A stretch of 64,000 nucleotides of DNA from Candidatus Sulfopaludibacter sp. SbA3 (GTDB lineage: Bacteria; Acidobacteriota; Terriglobia; Bryobacterales; Bryobacteraceae). The DNA lies in contig CAMDCN010000002.1 of the NCBI GenBank assembly GCA_945890485.1, positions 434,001 to 498,000 on the forward strand. Direction: 5' to 3'. Made by a program: the position numbers and the translations under genes. The notes beneath the pieces were generated by a model. The model was given only the letters and a program-made list of their open reading frames with translations. It searched no databases and was not told the origin of the DNA. This document shows, piece by piece, positions 26,500-33,621 of the stretch (within the stretch, counting starts at the first letter, position 1; each line of letters opens with the position of its first letter).

Positions 26500-26825
26500 A
26501 CGAGGAACTCTGGTTCGCCCAACTCGCCGAAGAGACCCCGCTCGAATCCGCCATCCCGGCCCCGTCCTGTCTCAAGTCGCTCGTATACTCTCAACTCATC
26601 AGCGAGGCTGAAACCGAAGGCCCTCTGCTGCCCCTGCCCGAAACCAAAGCCGCCGGCCGCGGCTTGTGCGTCTTTGAACACCTCATCGAAATCCTGCCCG
26701 TCGGAGCACCTCTGCAGAACTTCCAGTACTGCAAAATCTGCCACGCCCGCGTCCTCGGCGAACGCGTCGAACAAGCCCCCATCTTCTGGCCCTGCTGCCC
26801 CTACAGCGAGTTCCAGAATCGCTAG
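26496..26825 (+). CDS. Small Cys-rich protein coupled to the ECF sigma gene (candidate regulator)
   Basis: The 109-residue protein starts in an ATGA overlap with the sigma gene. It has no signal peptide or membrane helix. Its C-terminal half holds a compact cysteine cluster (CKICHARVLGERVE, then WPCCPY) that looks zinc-binding rather than haem-binding. Position suggests a soluble anti-sigma or redox/zinc-sensing partner; I do not recognise a named family. Its stop overlaps that of the convergent outer-membrane gene (CTAG). Confidence 0.7.
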   Translation: MNEELWFAQLAEETPLESAIPAPSCLKSLVYSQLISEAETEGPLLPLPETKAAGRGLCVFEHLIEILPVGAPLQNFQYCKICHARVLGERVEQAPIFWPCCPYSEFQNR

Positions 26826-27478
26826 AACTCCCGCACAAAACCAAACATATTCTGGAAGTTCGCCAGGTTGCGCTGCCCTCGCGGTCGCAACTCCCGGCTG
26901 ATTGGATTCGCCGAAAGCGTCTCCCAGAAGCTATATCGGAACCGCCAGCCCGCTGCCACCCGCACGTCGATCCCCACCGCCGTCCGCCAGAATACCCGCG
27001 TCGCCGCAAACCGCTCTGGCGGCAGCGCCACCGCCCCCTTCGCCACCACCACAGCCCCTGCCTCGGAACTCACCCGCACCATCCCCAATCCCCCGGCCAC
27101 ATACGGTCGAAACCGGCTCGCCCGCGGGCGAAAATAAATCAGCCCATCCAGGCTCCCGGCGTTCTGCGAACTCGTCCGCTTCTGCTCAAACGTCGTCTCC
27201 TGTCCGCCCTCCACCCGCGTCTCCGTGAATTGCAGCGCGTTCCGGTTCCACACGTAGCTGCCCTGCACGCTCAAATATTCCCGCCAATGCTTCCCCGCAA
27301 ACAGATGCAGCGAGGCCCCGTTCTCCGGCTTATACAGCGAAATCGCCGTCGACTCCTGCGTGATAATCGTCCGCCCATCGGCCGACAACGTCGACAGGCC
27401 CCCCATCCCACCCGCATACCACTGCCCATGGCTCGCGCACACCATCCCCAACCCAAATAACATCCCCCGCAAAATCAT
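26822..27478 (-). CDS. Outer-membrane beta-barrel protein
   Basis: The 218-residue product has a short signal peptide (MILRGMLFGLGMVCASHG), then alternating hydrophobic strands (YLSVQGSYVWNRNALQFT, YVAGGLGMVRVSSE, GIDVRVAAGWRFRYSFWETL) and a C-terminal Phe (FVREF), the usual barrel end. Conserved RPYVAGGLG resembles OmpA/OmpW-like eight-strand barrels. The start codon lies in the loop of a 14-bp perfect hairpin, so its translation is probably controlled. Substrate or function is unknown. Confidence 0.72.
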   Translation of the reverse strand: MILRGMLFGLGMVCASHGQWYAGGMGGLSTLSADGRTIITQESTAISLYKPENGASLHLFAGKHWREYLSVQGSYVWNRNALQFTETRVEGGQETTFEQKRTSSQNAGSLDGLIYFRPRASRFRPYVAGGLGMVRVSSEAGAVVVAKGAVALPPERFAATRVFWRTAVGIDVRVAAGWRFRYSFWETLSANPISRELRPRGQRNLANFQNMFGFVREF

Positions 27479-27498
27479 TCCTCTATTTTGCGGGGGAT
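27462..27498. promoter_or_regulatory. 14-bp perfect hairpin enclosing the outer-membrane gene's start codon
   Basis: ATCCCCCGCAAAAT (27462-27475) is the exact reverse complement of ATTTTGCGGGGGAT (27485-27498), with a 9-base loop. In the minus-strand mRNA the loop reads AGAGGAATG, which is the ribosome site plus the start codon at 27478. The arms are the last leader bases and codons 2-6. It could be an RNA switch on translation, or a DNA operator in the divergent promoter region. Confidence 0.75.
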
Positions 27499-27564
27499 TT
27501 CCGCCTAAGTCACGACTACATCACCGAAGCGCTTCACAATTTTTCTCACTACCAGGACATCGAC

Positions 27565-28323
27565 ATGACAAGAACTCTGTTCGCGCTTCCCCTCTTCGCT
27601 CTCGCCCTCTGCGCCCAAACGCCCGGCGTCCGAACCATCGGCTCGCCCACCACCATTGATCAGTCCGGCTCCTACATTCTCACCAACAGCCTCTTCACCA
27701 GCTCTAGCACCGGCGCCGGCATCACCATCACCGCCAGCGACGTCACCCTCGACCTGAATGGCCAAACCATCACCGGCCCCGGTAACGGCTCCCACGCCGG
27801 CCTCCGCATCCTCAACGCCCAGAACGTCACCGTCAAAAACGGCAACATCACCGGCACCCTCATGGGCGTCATGGTCAACAATTCCGCCAACGTCCGCATC
27901 GAGGCCCTCAATATCCGCGGCTTCGGCCTCGCCGTCTCCGCGCCCCCGCCCGAAATCGGCGTTCTCATCAACCAATCCCGCGGCGTCGTTGTTCTCAACA
28001 ACTCCCTCTTCAACGTCGGCCTCGGCCTCTTCGTCCGCGGTAGCCGCAGCTTCGGCAACCGCCTGCAAAACAACACCATCACCGCCATGGCTAATGGGGT
28101 CCTCGGCATCTGCTACAACCCCGCCGACGGCGACCCCCAAGGTCCCAAGGGCGACCTGATCACCGGCAATCTCATCCGTGGATTCCCCACTTCCATTCAA
28201 ATGAATAGCCGCTCCGACTACAACGTCATCGACGCCAACACCCTCATCTACACCGTCGCTGCCCTCGAAAACACAAACCCCACCAACATCGCGCAAGGCA
28301 ACCGCACCGCCCAGATCCAGTAA
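27565..28323 (+). CDS. Secreted right-handed beta-helix protein
   Basis: The 252-residue product has a signal peptide (MTRTLFALPLFALALCAQ) and a chain of short coils rich in Asn, Val and Ile (LDLNGQTITGPGNGSHAGLR, NVTVKNGNITGTLMG, VVVLNNSLFNVG, NRLQNNTITAM). This is the parallel beta-helix fold of pectate lyase-like and NosD-like proteins. AGGA lies 7 bases upstream of the ATG. The fold is clear; no catalytic residues are obvious, so carbohydrate binding or cleavage is only a possibility. Confidence 0.8.
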   Translation: MTRTLFALPLFALALCAQTPGVRTIGSPTTIDQSGSYILTNSLFTSSSTGAGITITASDVTLDLNGQTITGPGNGSHAGLRILNAQNVTVKNGNITGTLMGVMVNNSANVRIEALNIRGFGLAVSAPPPEIGVLINQSRGVVVLNNSLFNVGLGLFVRGSRSFGNRLQNNTITAMANGVLGICYNPADGDPQGPKGDLITGNLIRGFPTSIQMNSRSDYNVIDANTLIYTVAALENTNPTNIAQGNRTAQIQ

Positions 28324-28371: not shown

Positions 28372-28770
28372 ATGCCCCCCGCCAAAAAGGCAACCCGCCG
28401 CCGCTTGCCGACGATTCGCATCGGCCATCTCTCCATCACCCTCCTGCCCGGCGAATCCATCGATCGCGTCCAACAAATCACTGACCAAGTGTGGGAGCGC
28501 TGGCAACCGCAAAACATCGTCGAACAGTTCGATTGCGACATGATCATCCACGCCCTCTTCAAAATCGAACGCTACGAACGCTTTCGAGATCAGTTCGTCG
28601 CCAGCGGCATCCAAGCCGAAGACCTCGATCGGGCCAGCAAATCCTACCAGTCCACCGTTGCCACCGCCGAACGCAGCCTCCTCATCGCCCGCGAATCCCA
28701 ACCCCGCCACCACACCAAAGTGACCCCGGATATGCTCGCCGATTGGCCCGTCGATGGGCCCATCCAGTAG
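28372..28770 (+). CDS. Conserved-looking hypothetical protein at the head of the DUF2760/Hsp70 operon
   Basis: The 132-residue protein begins with a basic stretch (MPPAKKATRRRLPTIRIG). It is otherwise a soluble, helix-rich domain (DRVQQITDQVWERWQPQNIV, FDCDMIIHALFKIERYERFR). I do not recognise the family. The ATG at 28372 was chosen because AAGGTGGG lies upstream; a GTG at 28357 is possible. It is 36 bases ahead of the DUF2760 gene and probably co-transcribed. Confidence 0.65.
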   Translation: MPPAKKATRRRLPTIRIGHLSITLLPGESIDRVQQITDQVWERWQPQNIVEQFDCDMIIHALFKIERYERFRDQFVASGIQAEDLDRASKSYQSTVATAERSLLIARESQPRHHTKVTPDMLADWPVDGPIQ

Positions 28771-28806
28771 GACACGGTGTATCCTGAAGGATTCAGGAGC
28801 TTTTCG

Positions 28807-29349
28807 TTGTCTCGTATTGCTGACGCCTTCTCATCTTTCTTCGGGATCCTCTTCTCCGGAACCCTTTCTCCCGACATAGCCAAGACCTACGGCTATACCA
28901 AAATCGTCGAAAAGAAGCCGGAGCCCAAAGTCGCCCCCGTCCCCGTTGCCAAATCCAGCGACGGCGCCCTCCAAATGCTCGGCATCCTCCAGCGCGAAGC
29001 CCGCCTCGTCGACTTCCTCATGGAAGATATCTCCGCCTATCAGGACGATCAGGTCGGCGCCGCCGTCCGCACCCTCCACGAACAGGCGGGCAAGGCCATA
29101 GGCCGCTATCTCACCCTGACGCCGATCATCGACGGCGTCGAAGGTACTTACACGGAAACCCGCGCCGCCGGCCAGCTCGCCAAAGATAACGCCGCTCTGA
29201 AGTTCCTCGGCAACGTCCCCGCCCAAGGCAAGCCCCAGGGCGGCACCCTCCGCCACAAAGGCTGGCACGCCTCCAAAGTCGACCTCCCCGAAGTGAAGCC
29301 GGCCATGTCCGTCCACATCCTCGCCCCCGCCGAAATCGAAATCGAATAG
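28807..29349 (+). CDS. DUF2760 protein
   Basis: The 180-residue protein starts at a TTG with AGGAG 7 bases upstream. An N-terminal hydrophobic/amphipathic helix (IADAFSSFFGILFSGTLS) is followed by a Pro/Lys linker and the domain GALQMLGILQREARLVDFLM, EDISAYQDDQVGAAVRTLHE, ending HKGWHASKVDLPEV. This matches DUF2760, a family of unknown function that I recall being encoded beside unusual Hsp70 proteins, as here. The next gene starts 1 base after its stop. A co-factor or client role for the two Hsp70s is inferred. Confidence 0.85.
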   Translation: MSRIADAFSSFFGILFSGTLSPDIAKTYGYTKIVEKKPEPKVAPVPVAKSSDGALQMLGILQREARLVDFLMEDISAYQDDQVGAAVRTLHEQAGKAIGRYLTLTPIIDGVEGTYTETRAAGQLAKDNAALKFLGNVPAQGKPQGGTLRHKGWHASKVDLPEVKPAMSVHILAPAEIEIE

Positions 29350-29350
29350 C

Positions 29351-30988
29351 ATGCAGCCCACCCTTGGCATCGACCTCGGCACCACCAACTGTGCCGTCGC
29401 ACGCGCCGAAGAAGAAGCTGGCGTTGAAGTCCTCGGCATCCCCCAACTCGTCAATCCCGGCGAAGTCCGCGCCGAGCCCCTCTTCCCCTCCAGCCTCTAT
29501 CTTCCCGGCCCCTCCGAATTCGCCCCCGGCGCGCTCGCCCTCCCCTGGGACGAGAACCCGCCCTACCTCACCGGCGAGCTAGCCAAGAAGCGCGGAGCCG
29601 AAAACCCCTCCCGTCTCGTCCACTCCGCCAAGTCCTGGCTCGCCGTCGCTGGCGATATGCCCCACGTAACCGCCGTTGAAGCCACCCGCGCCTACCTCGC
29701 CCACCTCCGCGCCGCCACCCCTAACTTCGACGCCCACAACGTCCTCATCACCGTCCCTGCGTCCTTTGACGCCGCCGCCCGCGACCTCACCCTCCAAGCC
29801 GCCCAACAAGCCGGCTACCCCACCCCCGTCCTCCTCGAAGAGCCCCAAGCCGCCTTCTACGCCTGGCTCGAACGCCACCCCGATTGGCGCGAACGCATCC
29901 ACCCCGGCGCCCTCATCCTCGTCGTCGACATCGGCGGCGGCACCACCGACTTCACCCTCATCCGCGTCACCGACCAATCCGGCGACCTCACCCTCGAACG
30001 CATCGCCGTCGGCGAACACATCCTCCTTGGCGGCGACAACATGGACCTCGCCCTCGCCCGCGCCGTCGAAGCGGAAATGCCCAAGCTCGACGCCGCCCAG
30101 CTCCACGCCCTCTGGCAGCGCTGCCGCGTAGCCAAGGAAAAGCTCCTGGCCCCCGGGTCCACCCAAGCCGAAGAACCCGTCACCATCCTCGGCCGCGGCA
30201 CCGGCCTCATCGGCGGCACCCTCAAAGGCGTCCTCCGCCGCTCGACTCTTGAACAGGTCCTCCTCGATGGCTTCCTCCCCTCCGCCGAGGCCACGGACGT
30301 TCCCGCCCGCCCCCGCCGCGCCGCCCTGCAAGAGGTCGGCCTCCCCTACGCCTCCGACCCCGCCATCACCCGCCATCTCGCCGCCTTCCTCCGCGGCCAA
30401 CAACCCACCCACGTGCTCTTCAACGGTGGCGTCCTCAACGCCCCCTTAGTCCGCGAACGCCTGCTCTCGGTTCTCAACTCCTGGCTCCCCGCCCCCGTCG
30501 AAGTGCTCTCCGGCGAAGACCTCATGCACGCCGTCGCCCGCGGCGCGGCCTACTACGGCCTCGCCCGCCAGGGCCGCGGCCTCCGCATCCGCGGCGGCGT
30601 CCCCCGGACTTACTACCTCGGCATCGAATCCGCCATGCCCGCCGTCCCTGGTTTCCCGCCGCCGATGAAGGCGCTCACCGTCGTCCCCTTCGGGCTTGAA
30701 GAAGGGTCCGCCGTCGCCCTGCCCAAGTACGAGTTCTCCCTCCGTACCGGCGAACCCGCCGAGTTCCGCTTCTTCTCCTCCACCACTCGAAAAGACGACC
30801 AGCCCGGCGACCTCCTCGACCCCATCCCCCCCGGCGTCGAAGAGCTCGCTCCCATGGAAGTCACCCTCTCCGGCGCACCCGCCCGCGTCTCTCTCGAAGC
30901 GCAGGTCACGGAAACCGGCATGCTCGAAATCTATTGCGTCGCCACCAGCGGAGAACGCTGGAAACTCGAATTCAACCTACGCTCATGA
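29351..30988 (+). CDS. Hsp70-family protein A (short DnaK-like)
   Basis: The 545-residue protein has the actin-fold ATPase motifs GIDLGTTNCAVA (phosphate 1), VVDIGGGTTDFTLI (phosphate 2) and FNGGVLNAPLVRERL (adenosine region). Its C-terminal beta region (about 415-545) is shorter than the DnaK substrate-binding domain and there is no helical lid. It is not classical DnaK (about 638 residues). It shares a 4-base ATGA overlap with the second Hsp70 gene. ATP binding is likely; clients are unknown. Confidence 0.9.
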   Translation: MQPTLGIDLGTTNCAVARAEEEAGVEVLGIPQLVNPGEVRAEPLFPSSLYLPGPSEFAPGALALPWDENPPYLTGELAKKRGAENPSRLVHSAKSWLAVAGDMPHVTAVEATRAYLAHLRAATPNFDAHNVLITVPASFDAAARDLTLQAAQQAGYPTPVLLEEPQAAFYAWLERHPDWRERIHPGALILVVDIGGGTTDFTLIRVTDQSGDLTLERIAVGEHILLGGDNMDLALARAVEAEMPKLDAAQLHALWQRCRVAKEKLLAPGSTQAEEPVTILGRGTGLIGGTLKGVLRRSTLEQVLLDGFLPSAEATDVPARPRRAALQEVGLPYASDPAITRHLAAFLRGQQPTHVLFNGGVLNAPLVRERLLSVLNSWLPAPVEVLSGEDLMHAVARGAAYYGLARQGRGLRIRGGVPRTYYLGIESAMPAVPGFPPPMKALTVVPFGLEEGSAVALPKYEFSLRTGEPAEFRFFSSTTRKDDQPGDLLDPIPPGVEELAPMEVTLSGAPARVSLEAQVTETGMLEIYCVATSGERWKLEFNLRS

Positions 30989-33621
30989 AGATCGGCATCG
31001 ACCTCGGCACCACCAACTCCGCCCTCGCCTATTGGGACCCTTCCGACGACGACGCAGCCATCAGCGTCTTTGAAATCCCCCAGTTCACGGCGCCCGGACG
31101 CATCGAAAAGCTCCGCACCCTCCCCAGCTTCCTCTACCTCGCCGACCAGACCTACGTCGGCGCCTACGCCCGCGAACAAGGCGCCCTCACCCCCACCCGC
31201 TCCGTCCACTCCGCCAAAAGCTGGCTCTCGAACTCTGACGTCGACCGCACCGCCAAAATCCTCCCCTGGGAAGCCCAGCCCGAATCCCGCGAACTCTCTC
31301 CCGTCGAAGTCTCCGCCGCCTTCCTCAAACACATCCGCGAAGCCTGGGACACCGCCCACCCGGAAGCCCCCCTCGCCGCGCAAGACATCGTCCTCACCGT
31401 TCCCGCCTCCTTCGACGAGGAAGCCCGCGAACTCACCGTCATGGCCGCCACCCAGGCCGGCCTCGAAAACGTCACTCTCATCGAAGAGCCCGCCGCGGCC
31501 TTCTACTCCTGGATCGCCAACCACCTCACCGCTTCGCAAAAGCAGCTTTTCGACGGCCAGACCGTCCTCGTCTGCGACGTCGGCGGCGGCACCAGCGACT
31601 TCACCCTCATCAAGGTCTCCCGCACCGGCGACATGGTCGAGTTCACCCGCACCGCCGTCGGCAAGCACCTCCTCCTCGGCGGCGACAACCTCGACCTCAC
31701 CCTCGCCTGGCTCGTCGAAGCCAAGCTCGGCCAACAGCTCTCCCTCCGCCAACGCTCCGCCCTCCGCCGCCAGTGCGCTGCCGCGAAAGAACGTCTCCTC
31801 AACGAACCCAATCTCGAAAAGGTGGAGATCACCGTCCTCGGCGCCGGCAGCTCCCTCATCGGCGGAACCCTGCGTTCCGAGATCCTCCGCTCCGAGGCCC
31901 TCGAACTCGCTCTCGAAGGCTTCCTGCCCGCCGCCCCGCTCGCCGAACGGCCCAAAGACGATAAGCGTAGCCTCTTCCGCGAGCTCGGCCTCCCTTACGT
32001 CTCCGACCCCGCCGTCACCAAGCACCTCGCGGCCTTTCTCACGGACAACGGCATCACCGAAGGCCCCGACGCCATCCTCTTCAACGGCGGCTTCTTCATC
32101 CCGGAACTCCTCCGCCAGCGCGTCGCCGACGTTCTCGAACACTGGTTCGCCAAGCGCCCGGCCATCTTTGAAAACCGCGACCTCGATCTCGCCGTCGCCG
32201 TCGGTGCGGCCTACTACGCCAACGTCCGCACCGGCGGCAAAGGCGTCCTCGTCCGCGGCGGTCTCCCCCGCGCTTACTTCATCGGCCTGTCGAACGACCG
32301 CAAGCAGTCCATCTGCCTCGCCCCCCGCGGCAGCGAAGAAGGCACTGAGATCACCCTCGACCACGAAGGTCTCCAACTCGTCGCCAACCGCCCCGTCAGC
32401 TTCCGCCTCTACAGCTCCCTCCACCGCACGGAAGACCAGATCGGCGACCTCGTCGACCTCTCCGCCGAACCCGAAATCCACTCCCACGCCCCGCTCCAAG
32501 CCCTCATCCGCTTTGGCAAGCCCACCGGCGAACGCCTCGTACCCGTCAAGCTCGGCGCCAAGCTAACCGCTGTCGGAACGCTTGAAATCTGGTGCGATTC
32601 GAAGGTCAGCGACAACCGTTGGCGCCTGCAGTTCGAGCTCCGCAAATCCGCCGCCCCCACCACCCAGCGCGCCGCCACGGTCATTGCCGATGAAGCCGTC
32701 GCCGCCGGCGAAGCCCTCATCCGCCAGACCTTCGAAGCCGGCACGCTAGCCCCCGAAGAACTCCCCGCCAAGCTCGAACAGCTCCTCGGCCTCGGCCGCG
32801 CCAGTTGGCCCTTAAGCGTCATCCGCCGCTACTCCGATCTCTTCCTCCAGTTAGGCGAAGGCCGCAAGCGCTCCGCCGCTCACGAATCCCGCTGGTTGAA
32901 TCTCGGAGGCCTCTGCCTCCGCCCCGGCTTCGGCTTCCCCGGCGACGAACTCCGCATTGAACAGGCGCGCCGCGTCTACGCCGGCGGCCTCGCGTTCGGC
33001 AATCAGGTCCAACCCGAAATCGAATGGTGGATCTTCTGGGGCCGCGTCGCCGGTGGACTCAATCGCAATCAACAGACGGACATCTACCAGCGAATCGCCA
33101 ATCAGATCCTCCCGAAAGGAAACAAAAAGGCCCCCCGCATCAACCCCAGCCTCTTGCGCGAACTCTGGCGCACCGCCGCCAGCCTCGAACACCTCCCCGC
33201 CGGCACCCGCACCGAACTCGGCGAAGCGTGTCTCAAGCGTCTCCGCAACAACCAATCGACACACCCCGAGACGGACCTCTGGTGCCTGAGCCGCATTGGA
33301 GCCCGCAAGCTCTTCTACGGGCCGATGAACCTGGTCCTCCCCGCAGCGACCGCGGTTCGCTGGGCCGAGCAGCTTCTAAAACATCCGCACGCCCACGTCC
33401 CCGAAACCCTGGTCGCCCTCTGTCAAAAAACAGGCAACGCCACCCTCGACGTCCCCGCCACCACAATCAACCTCATCACTGCCCGCATCCAGCAGCACAA
33501 GGACGCCGAATCCTTCCTCGCCCGCCTCGAAGGCAAAGCCACCGACTCTGCGGAATCTCTCTCCCGCCTCTTCGGCGAAGAGCTCCCCAGCGGCTTGGTA
33601 TTCGCTGGTGACAACCCATAG
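30985..33621 (+). CDS. Hsp70-family protein B with C-terminal DUF3731 domain
   Basis: The 878-residue protein has GIDLGTTNSALAYWD, CDVGGGTSDFTLIKV and the adenosine-site FNGGFFIPELLRQRV. About 530 residues align in layout with protein A. A further 320 residues (from about 560) form an all-helical region (RRYSDLFLQLGEGRKRSAAH, LGGLCLRPGFGFPGD) matching DUF3731, a domain seen almost only on such Hsp70s. The tandem pair plus DUF2760 suggests a dedicated chaperone machine. The ATG overlaps the previous stop. Confidence 0.9.
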   Translation: MKIGIDLGTTNSALAYWDPSDDDAAISVFEIPQFTAPGRIEKLRTLPSFLYLADQTYVGAYAREQGALTPTRSVHSAKSWLSNSDVDRTAKILPWEAQPESRELSPVEVSAAFLKHIREAWDTAHPEAPLAAQDIVLTVPASFDEEARELTVMAATQAGLENVTLIEEPAAAFYSWIANHLTASQKQLFDGQTVLVCDVGGGTSDFTLIKVSRTGDMVEFTRTAVGKHLLLGGDNLDLTLAWLVEAKLGQQLSLRQRSALRRQCAAAKERLLNEPNLEKVEITVLGAGSSLIGGTLRSEILRSEALELALEGFLPAAPLAERPKDDKRSLFRELGLPYVSDPAVTKHLAAFLTDNGITEGPDAILFNGGFFIPELLRQRVADVLEHWFAKRPAIFENRDLDLAVAVGAAYYANVRTGGKGVLVRGGLPRAYFIGLSNDRKQSICLAPRGSEEGTEITLDHEGLQLVANRPVSFRLYSSLHRTEDQIGDLVDLSAEPEIHSHAPLQALIRFGKPTGERLVPVKLGAKLTAVGTLEIWCDSKVSDNRWRLQFELRKSAAPTTQRAATVIADEAVAAGEALIRQTFEAGTLAPEELPAKLEQLLGLGRASWPLSVIRRYSDLFLQLGEGRKRSAAHESRWLNLGGLCLRPGFGFPGDELRIEQARRVYAGGLAFGNQVQPEIEWWIFWGRVAGGLNRNQQTDIYQRIANQILPKGNKKAPRINPSLLRELWRTAASLEHLPAGTRTELGEACLKRLRNNQSTHPETDLWCLSRIGARKLFYGPMNLVLPAATAVRWAEQLLKHPHAHVPETLVALCQKTGNATLDVPATTINLITARIQQHKDAESFLARLEGKATDSAESLSRLFGEELPSGLVFAGDNP

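Follow-up and report, generated by a model that had tools for sequence, protein, structure and literature searches.

A conserved bacterial gene module combines a DUF2760 protein with two non-canonical Hsp70 proteins, one of them carrying DUF3731

Hsp70 chaperones are generally considered reliant on J-domain proteins, which trigger and target them. Among the relatives of DnaK, the eukaryotic Hsp110/Sse1 exchanges nucleotide on Hsp70, while HscA-HscB and HscC represent dedicated Hsp70s outside the DnaK core. The module described here, encoding a DUF2760 protein (B) and two Hsp70-type proteins (C and D), resembles each of these systems in part. It shares with DnaK the NBD fold of D (Z about 38), the catalytic residues and a beta-domain behind the NBD in C and D, but C and D have neither the helical lid nor the LLLD linker, their J-contacts are replaced, they come with a partner of their own (B), and the J-domain and GrpE genes are sited elsewhere in the genome. 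As in Hsp110/Sse1, a simpler Hsp70 (C) is accompanied by a paralogue whose C-terminal part is enlarged (D); nonetheless this pair is encoded together and in bacteria, DUF3731 showed no sequence kinship to the Hsp110 lid in the searches made here, and nucleotide exchange by C or D is conjectural. C and D are, like HscA-HscB and HscC, dedicated Hsp70s outside the DnaK core, and D finds its best NCBIfam matches in HscA models (98 bits, far below the cut-offs of 620 and 708.55), whereas C and D have no J-protein partner gene and no lid, and a DUF2760 partner instead.

B and D are plain members of the Pfam families DUF2760 (PF10816) and DUF3731 (PF12531, 'DNA-K related protein'), whose names carry no function. 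A literature search found no paper naming DUF2760 or DUF3731 and, as far as such searches show, the module is apparently unstudied. Candidate members nevertheless surface in work on other organisms. VC1373-VC1375 of Vibrio cholerae are listed together, as 'DnaK-related', among in-biofilm-repressed genes (PMC9201469); a transcriptome table gives VC1373 the same label (PMC5816637); HapR is reported to activate the VC1375 promoter in vivo and in vitro (PMC10328515); and VC1374 is among the transcripts found to differ when a sensor kinase was mutated, in work with polymyxin B (PMC5636140). In Myxococcus xanthus, MXAN_5323, a non-canonical Hsp70 of 925 residues, is required for complete sporulation and for resistance to peroxide; like the other non-canonical Hsp70s of that study, it fails to replace E. 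coli DnaK (PMC8265645). From annotation and length, our guess is that VC1373-VC1375 and MXAN_5323 belong to the same family as B, C and D.

The window, i.e., the whole stretch of 64,000 nucleotides that was analysed (C2:434001-498000), lies in the 7.1 Mb genome of a soil bacterium whose closest named relatives are Acidobacteriota, Bryobacteraceae-like metagenome assemblies. The four same-strand open reading frames reported by a first-pass annotation are present, all on the + strand: gene A (28372..28770; 132 amino acids, no Pfam match), an upstream neighbour outside the conserved module; gene B (28807..29349; 180 amino acids from a TTG start); gene C (29351..30988; 545 amino acids), with an NBD and a beta-domain; and gene D (30985..33621; 878 amino acids), in which NBD and beta-domain are followed by DUF3731 (32872..33600, residues 630-872). 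The Pfam curated cut-offs (25 bits for DUF2760, 25 for DUF3731, 20.6 for Hsp70) are clearly exceeded by B (119 bits to PF10816), by C (53.7 bits to PF00012) and by D (89.7 bits to PF00012 and 225 bits to PF12531); 34/34 aligned B rows match DUF2760 and 14/14 D rows match DUF3731 as well. The same annotation was right about the tight packing, which applies to B-C (1 nt gap) and C-D (ATGA overlap), and about the lack of DnaJ or GrpE nearby, the genome's single GrpE and all five J-domain matches falling outside the window. The neighbours at 26822-28323, upstream of these frames, are genes for an outer-membrane beta-barrel protein (- strand) and for a NosD-like beta-helix protein; no tie to the module was seen.

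The neighbourhood survey covered 114 loci (L049-L154, L166-L173), reduced to 76 by a 90% identity threshold applied to D or, in loci lacking D, to B or C. Of these, the 58 in which D is complete and no less than 3 kb of upstream sequence is available make up the counted set, the remaining 18 being excluded; it is a biased sample, drawn largely with DUF3731 and mostly from Bryobacteraceae. B adjoins D in 52 of these 58 non-redundant loci: both B and C are adjacent to D in 36 and B alone in 16, while C without B was found in none. In three D loci B and C lie kilobases away or on the other strand, and in three others neither occurs within the stretch examined. The conserved unit is thus formed by the three genes B, C and D, and not by four; accordingly, the proposed co-conservation holds for B, C and D and fails for A. 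Genome-wide, C is missing in five of the six B-D genomes without an adjacent C, and in the sixth C is encoded on a different contig; C is therefore dispensable to B-D, and the smallest combination that recurs in the family is D with B. One family member harbors only a divergent DUF2760 (30% identity), with neither C nor D. Among the recurring neighbours, no family indicates a particular job and no stress gene recurs, and the genes downstream of the module in Bryobacteraceae look lineage-bound and without functional link.

Gene A deserves separate consideration, having been described as the first gene of a four-gene operon and a candidate co-factor. It looks like a real gene, since its dN/dS of 0.10-0.22 against five relatives indicates purifying selection, and it is encoded on the same strand as B, ending 6 nt before the GTG start or 36 nt before the TTG start, an arrangement that would suit a four-gene machine with A as co-factor. 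However, A stands beside the module in only 2/58 loci, its homologues are confined to near relatives, the plasmid collection yields no match to it, and between A and B there is a conserved promoter-like box. A was rejected as a member of the module, the four-gene operon is not borne out, and we consider a four-gene machine with A as co-factor highly improbable.

The start of B is probably TTG 28807 and not GTG 28777, as the homologous TTG starts B in many relatives; a probable Shine-Dalgarno site, CAGGAG (28794..28799, +), precedes it, with GGAG at the same spacing in relatives. The box between A and B is TATCCT (28780..28785, +), a -10-like sequence. In an upstream alignment of 51 loci, which omits 11 named loci (other families, plasmid loci and the divergent L067) and those with less than 80 nt upstream, TATCCT lies within -60..-8 of B in 28/51 loci as compared to 1.3% in shuffles, and within -82..-8 in 36/51, mostly without gene A. 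No matching -35 box was seen in this alignment; we infer that TATCCT may be the operon's own -10-like element. Heat-shock control was rejected, as a CIRCE scan of the window gave no site and a sigma-70 promoter scan no promoter. In Bryobacteraceae-like genomes the conserved block before DUF2760 reads TATCCT-RAA-(N)-TT-GGAG-TTG, and a near match with 1 mismatch occurs at one other genomic site (G000:C1:18549-18568), which may reflect a small regulon or chance. The region also contains a 7-bp perfect hairpin (28782-28798) pairing the Shine-Dalgarno region of B. It is retained in most near relatives, weaker in L064 and L075 and not evident elsewhere, with a strong stem in the nearest relatives only; it was rejected as a meaningful element, terminator-like hairpins being no more numerous here than in shuffles.

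The residues of the two Hsp70s were compared over 38 C and 63 D sequences, after dropping rows that were short or without a recognised start motif, including most plasmid C rows. The catalytic residues, which we take to be D8, K70, E171, D194 and T199 in DnaK numbering, are invariant in 38/38 C and 63/63 D rows save for Thr/Ser at one phosphate-loop position, and the ATPase motifs are indeed as intact as had been supposed. The positions presumed to contact the J-protein (presumably R167, N170, T173, Y145 and N147 in E. coli DnaK) are instead replaced: an Arg stands at the first of them in none of the 38 C rows and in 4 of the 63 D rows, N170 is Glu, Y145 is Ser and N147 is Asp in all C and D rows, and T173 gives way to Gln throughout C and, in most cases, to Ala in D. 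Nothing in either protein aligns with the LLLD linker. The genome's own DnaK keeps all J-contact and linker residues, and its second Hsp70 all but one linker or neighbouring residue. C and D, which lack the lid and the linker and have their J-contact residues replaced, are not of the canonical DnaK type; both, with a catalytic NBD and a substrate-type beta-domain (from the model for D, from collinearity for C), have the features of the Hsp70 superfamily. C and D share most of the replacement residues in the J-face, so that one partner for both, different from DnaJ, would be expected.

In the D model (pLDDT 84.9, pTM 0.60, 58 rows), residues 1-420 superpose on solved NBDs (best Z 38.3, rmsd 3.0, 348 residues) and residues 1-552 on lid-truncated DnaK (7kru_B; Z 37.2, rmsd 5.2, 469 residues); Sse1 (2qxl_A) is also among the matches of the model. 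A fold search with the whole model hardly tests residues past 420, so that we claim no new fold. The superposition of the beta-domain is loose (5.2 A) and peptide binding is putative. From about residue 569 the model is helical almost to the end (segment about 569-860), a range that largely includes the PF12531 match, so that the DUF3731 tail appears as helical as first described and, in the model, occupies the place of the lid. C, up to its residue 545, runs parallel to D as far as about residue 554, and over its full length it is about 38-41% identical to D-type proteins; its beta-domain was assigned by this collinearity. As C stops at the end of the beta-domain, it looks like a naturally lidless Hsp70, and the earlier view that both proteins lack a normal lid is upheld. 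A profile search with DUF3731 found no solved relative at E <0.1. Its top match, at E 0.15, was the plant PRONE exchange domain, with the PRONE-like similarity located at D residues about 675-770 (window 33007-33294); this kinship is too weak to claim, Pfam PRONE remaining below cut-off in 7/14 rows.

Such departures from DnaK may also be read as those of an ATP-driven switch or scaffold rather than a chaperone, in which the Hsp70 folds would position DUF3731 and DUF2760 and the beta-domain would bind no clients, placing the module in signalling or membrane assembly. The canonical linker and J-contact sites are gone and the beta-domain resemblance is loose, as this reading would have it, and a Myxococcus study reports that none of four non-canonical Hsp70s, among which a relative of C and D is conjectural, rescued an E. 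coli dnaK mutant (PMC8265645). On the other hand, NBD and beta-domain are both kept across two phyla, the lidless form is still like truncated DnaK structures, and full catalytic conservation favours hydrolysis cycles; a switch thus seems unlikely to us.

The model of B is poor (pLDDT 64.9). Its N-terminus is an amphipathic helix whose moment is about 0.4-0.55 in the majority of 14 rows, and in Bradyrhizobium (L154) it contains two strongly hydrophobic stretches (2.89 and 2.37, Kyte-Doolittle); on these grounds B is likely membrane-associated. At the opposite end, a near-invariant, acidic-hydrophobic tail, APAE[IV]E (about 29320-29346), lies within 3 residues of the protein end in 34/34 B rows, which suggests a binding element.

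The association of DUF2760 with DUF3731 extends beyond the loci surveyed. Among 61 relatives DUF2760 was found in 32, DUF3731 in 32 and both in 29; in the window's own family (f1), 29/37 genomes have both domains and 35/37 at least one. Over 297 genomes of the phylum DUF2760 exceeds its cut-off in 8, all of them among the 10 with DUF3731, a co-occurrence with a hypergeometric probability of 3e-14 if genomes are treated as independent. A ninth DUF2760 match is weak (22.3 bits, below cut-off), and the two genomes with DUF3731 only are an assembly in about 800 contigs and one with a marginal match (27.4 bits). Together with the adjacency to D, the presence of DUF3731 in 8/8 above-cut-off DUF2760 genomes supports DUF2760 as a putative partner. 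In the plasmid collection B occurs in 11 records, C in 11 and D in 10, deriving from Burkholderia (4), Caballeronia (3), Bradyrhizobium (2), a comamonad (1) and Thiodictyon (1), and wherever all three genes are present they are contiguous and on one strand. The two Bradyrhizobium replicons with the module are typed conjugative; on one of them, pCB82_1 (L154), it lies about 1 kb upstream of groES/groEL. The Thiodictyon plasmid (L150) carries B-C without D/DUF3731 among annotated anti-phage genes, and downstream of them lies a gene with a TIR domain. A contig labelled Nevskia soli (L143) has a DUF3731 gene 58% identical to that of the window; since the phylum search around this genome returned the window's own phylum, its label is probably wrong.

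This distribution raises the question of whether the module is mobile stress-fitness cargo, exchanged on plasmids or islands and serving general proteostasis under stress with no special client. The patchy spread (8/297 phylum genomes above the DUF2760 cut-off), the conjugative Bradyrhizobium plasmids with one copy near groES/groEL, and the B-C pair beside anti-phage genes in Thiodictyon would fit such a role; nevertheless, the module looks resident in its own family, no stress neighbour recurs and the window has no CIRCE site, and we regard the cargo explanation as quite unlikely. Phage or viral origin was rejected, DUF2760 having no match in phage records or viral contigs; the 80 viral loci retained in the alignment with D reach no further than D residues 3-423, the generic Hsp70 NBD. 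A defence role was kept as a side reading at most: PADLOC defence models gave only weak NBD matches to the module (best E 1.2e-4, 18.9 bits) and the one defence-island neighbourhood is without D.

In a tree of C and D (50 rows, with the root on a long branch), C of both phyla falls into one group (99/99) apart from D, and D of most Acidobacteriota groups together (100/100), while Pseudomonadota D and one Acidobacteriota copy (L167) lie outside both the C group and the main D group. Bradyrhizobium rows have long branches and their placement is unsure, and whether D is a single clade depends on the root. C and D are thus ancient paralogues, whose duplication predates the exchange or split between Acidobacteriota and Pseudomonadota.

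The view of the locus as a dedicated chaperone-like machine is sustained for B, C and D, by their co-conservation, their contiguity in two phyla and the same departures from DnaK shared by both Hsp70s, and is not sustained for A. From the anatomy and linkage of these genes we infer the partner, trigger and job of the module as follows. B, C and D would constitute one chaperone module working on the Hsp70 principle without DnaJ and GrpE, a reading to which we give close to, but short of, an even chance. Its core would be D with B. Being the sole constant companion of D, B is proposed as the substitute for a J-protein: located at the membrane via its N-terminal helix, it would recruit D (and C) there, bring clients to the rewritten NBD face and trigger it. 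D would hydrolyse ATP, opening and closing a beta-domain covered by DUF3731, which may serve as its lid or clamp and perhaps also as an internal domain for exchange or dimerisation, and the lidless C might pair with D in the manner of Hsp70/Hsp110. The job would likely be the stress-related handling of membrane-proximal proteins. Against this reading count the four D rows that keep Arg at the R167 position, the loose beta-domain superposition, the three D loci with neither B nor C and the three with both at a distance, the genome with a divergent DUF2760 only, the poor model of B, and the neighbour families, none of which indicates a job.

B-C-D is a real, conserved Hsp70 module, in which the Hsp70 anatomy and the DUF2760 protein of the first-pass annotation stand and gene A does not. 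It is spread over at least two phyla, also on plasmids typed conjugative, and it gives two orphan Pfam families a defined context, DUF3731 as a predicted lid replacement and DUF2760 as a candidate partner. C and D keep the whole ATPase, have lost the J-contact face together with linker and lid, and are accompanied by a single unstudied protein, which makes it testable whether a partner other than a J-protein can drive the Hsp70 cycle. We suggest, tentatively and as a somewhat doubtful possibility, that all three accessories have been replaced, the J-protein by a membrane-anchored DUF2760 protein and the lid (perhaps also GrpE) by DUF3731, with a lidless, facultative paralogue as the third element; if true, this would be an Hsp70 system running without a J-domain protein.
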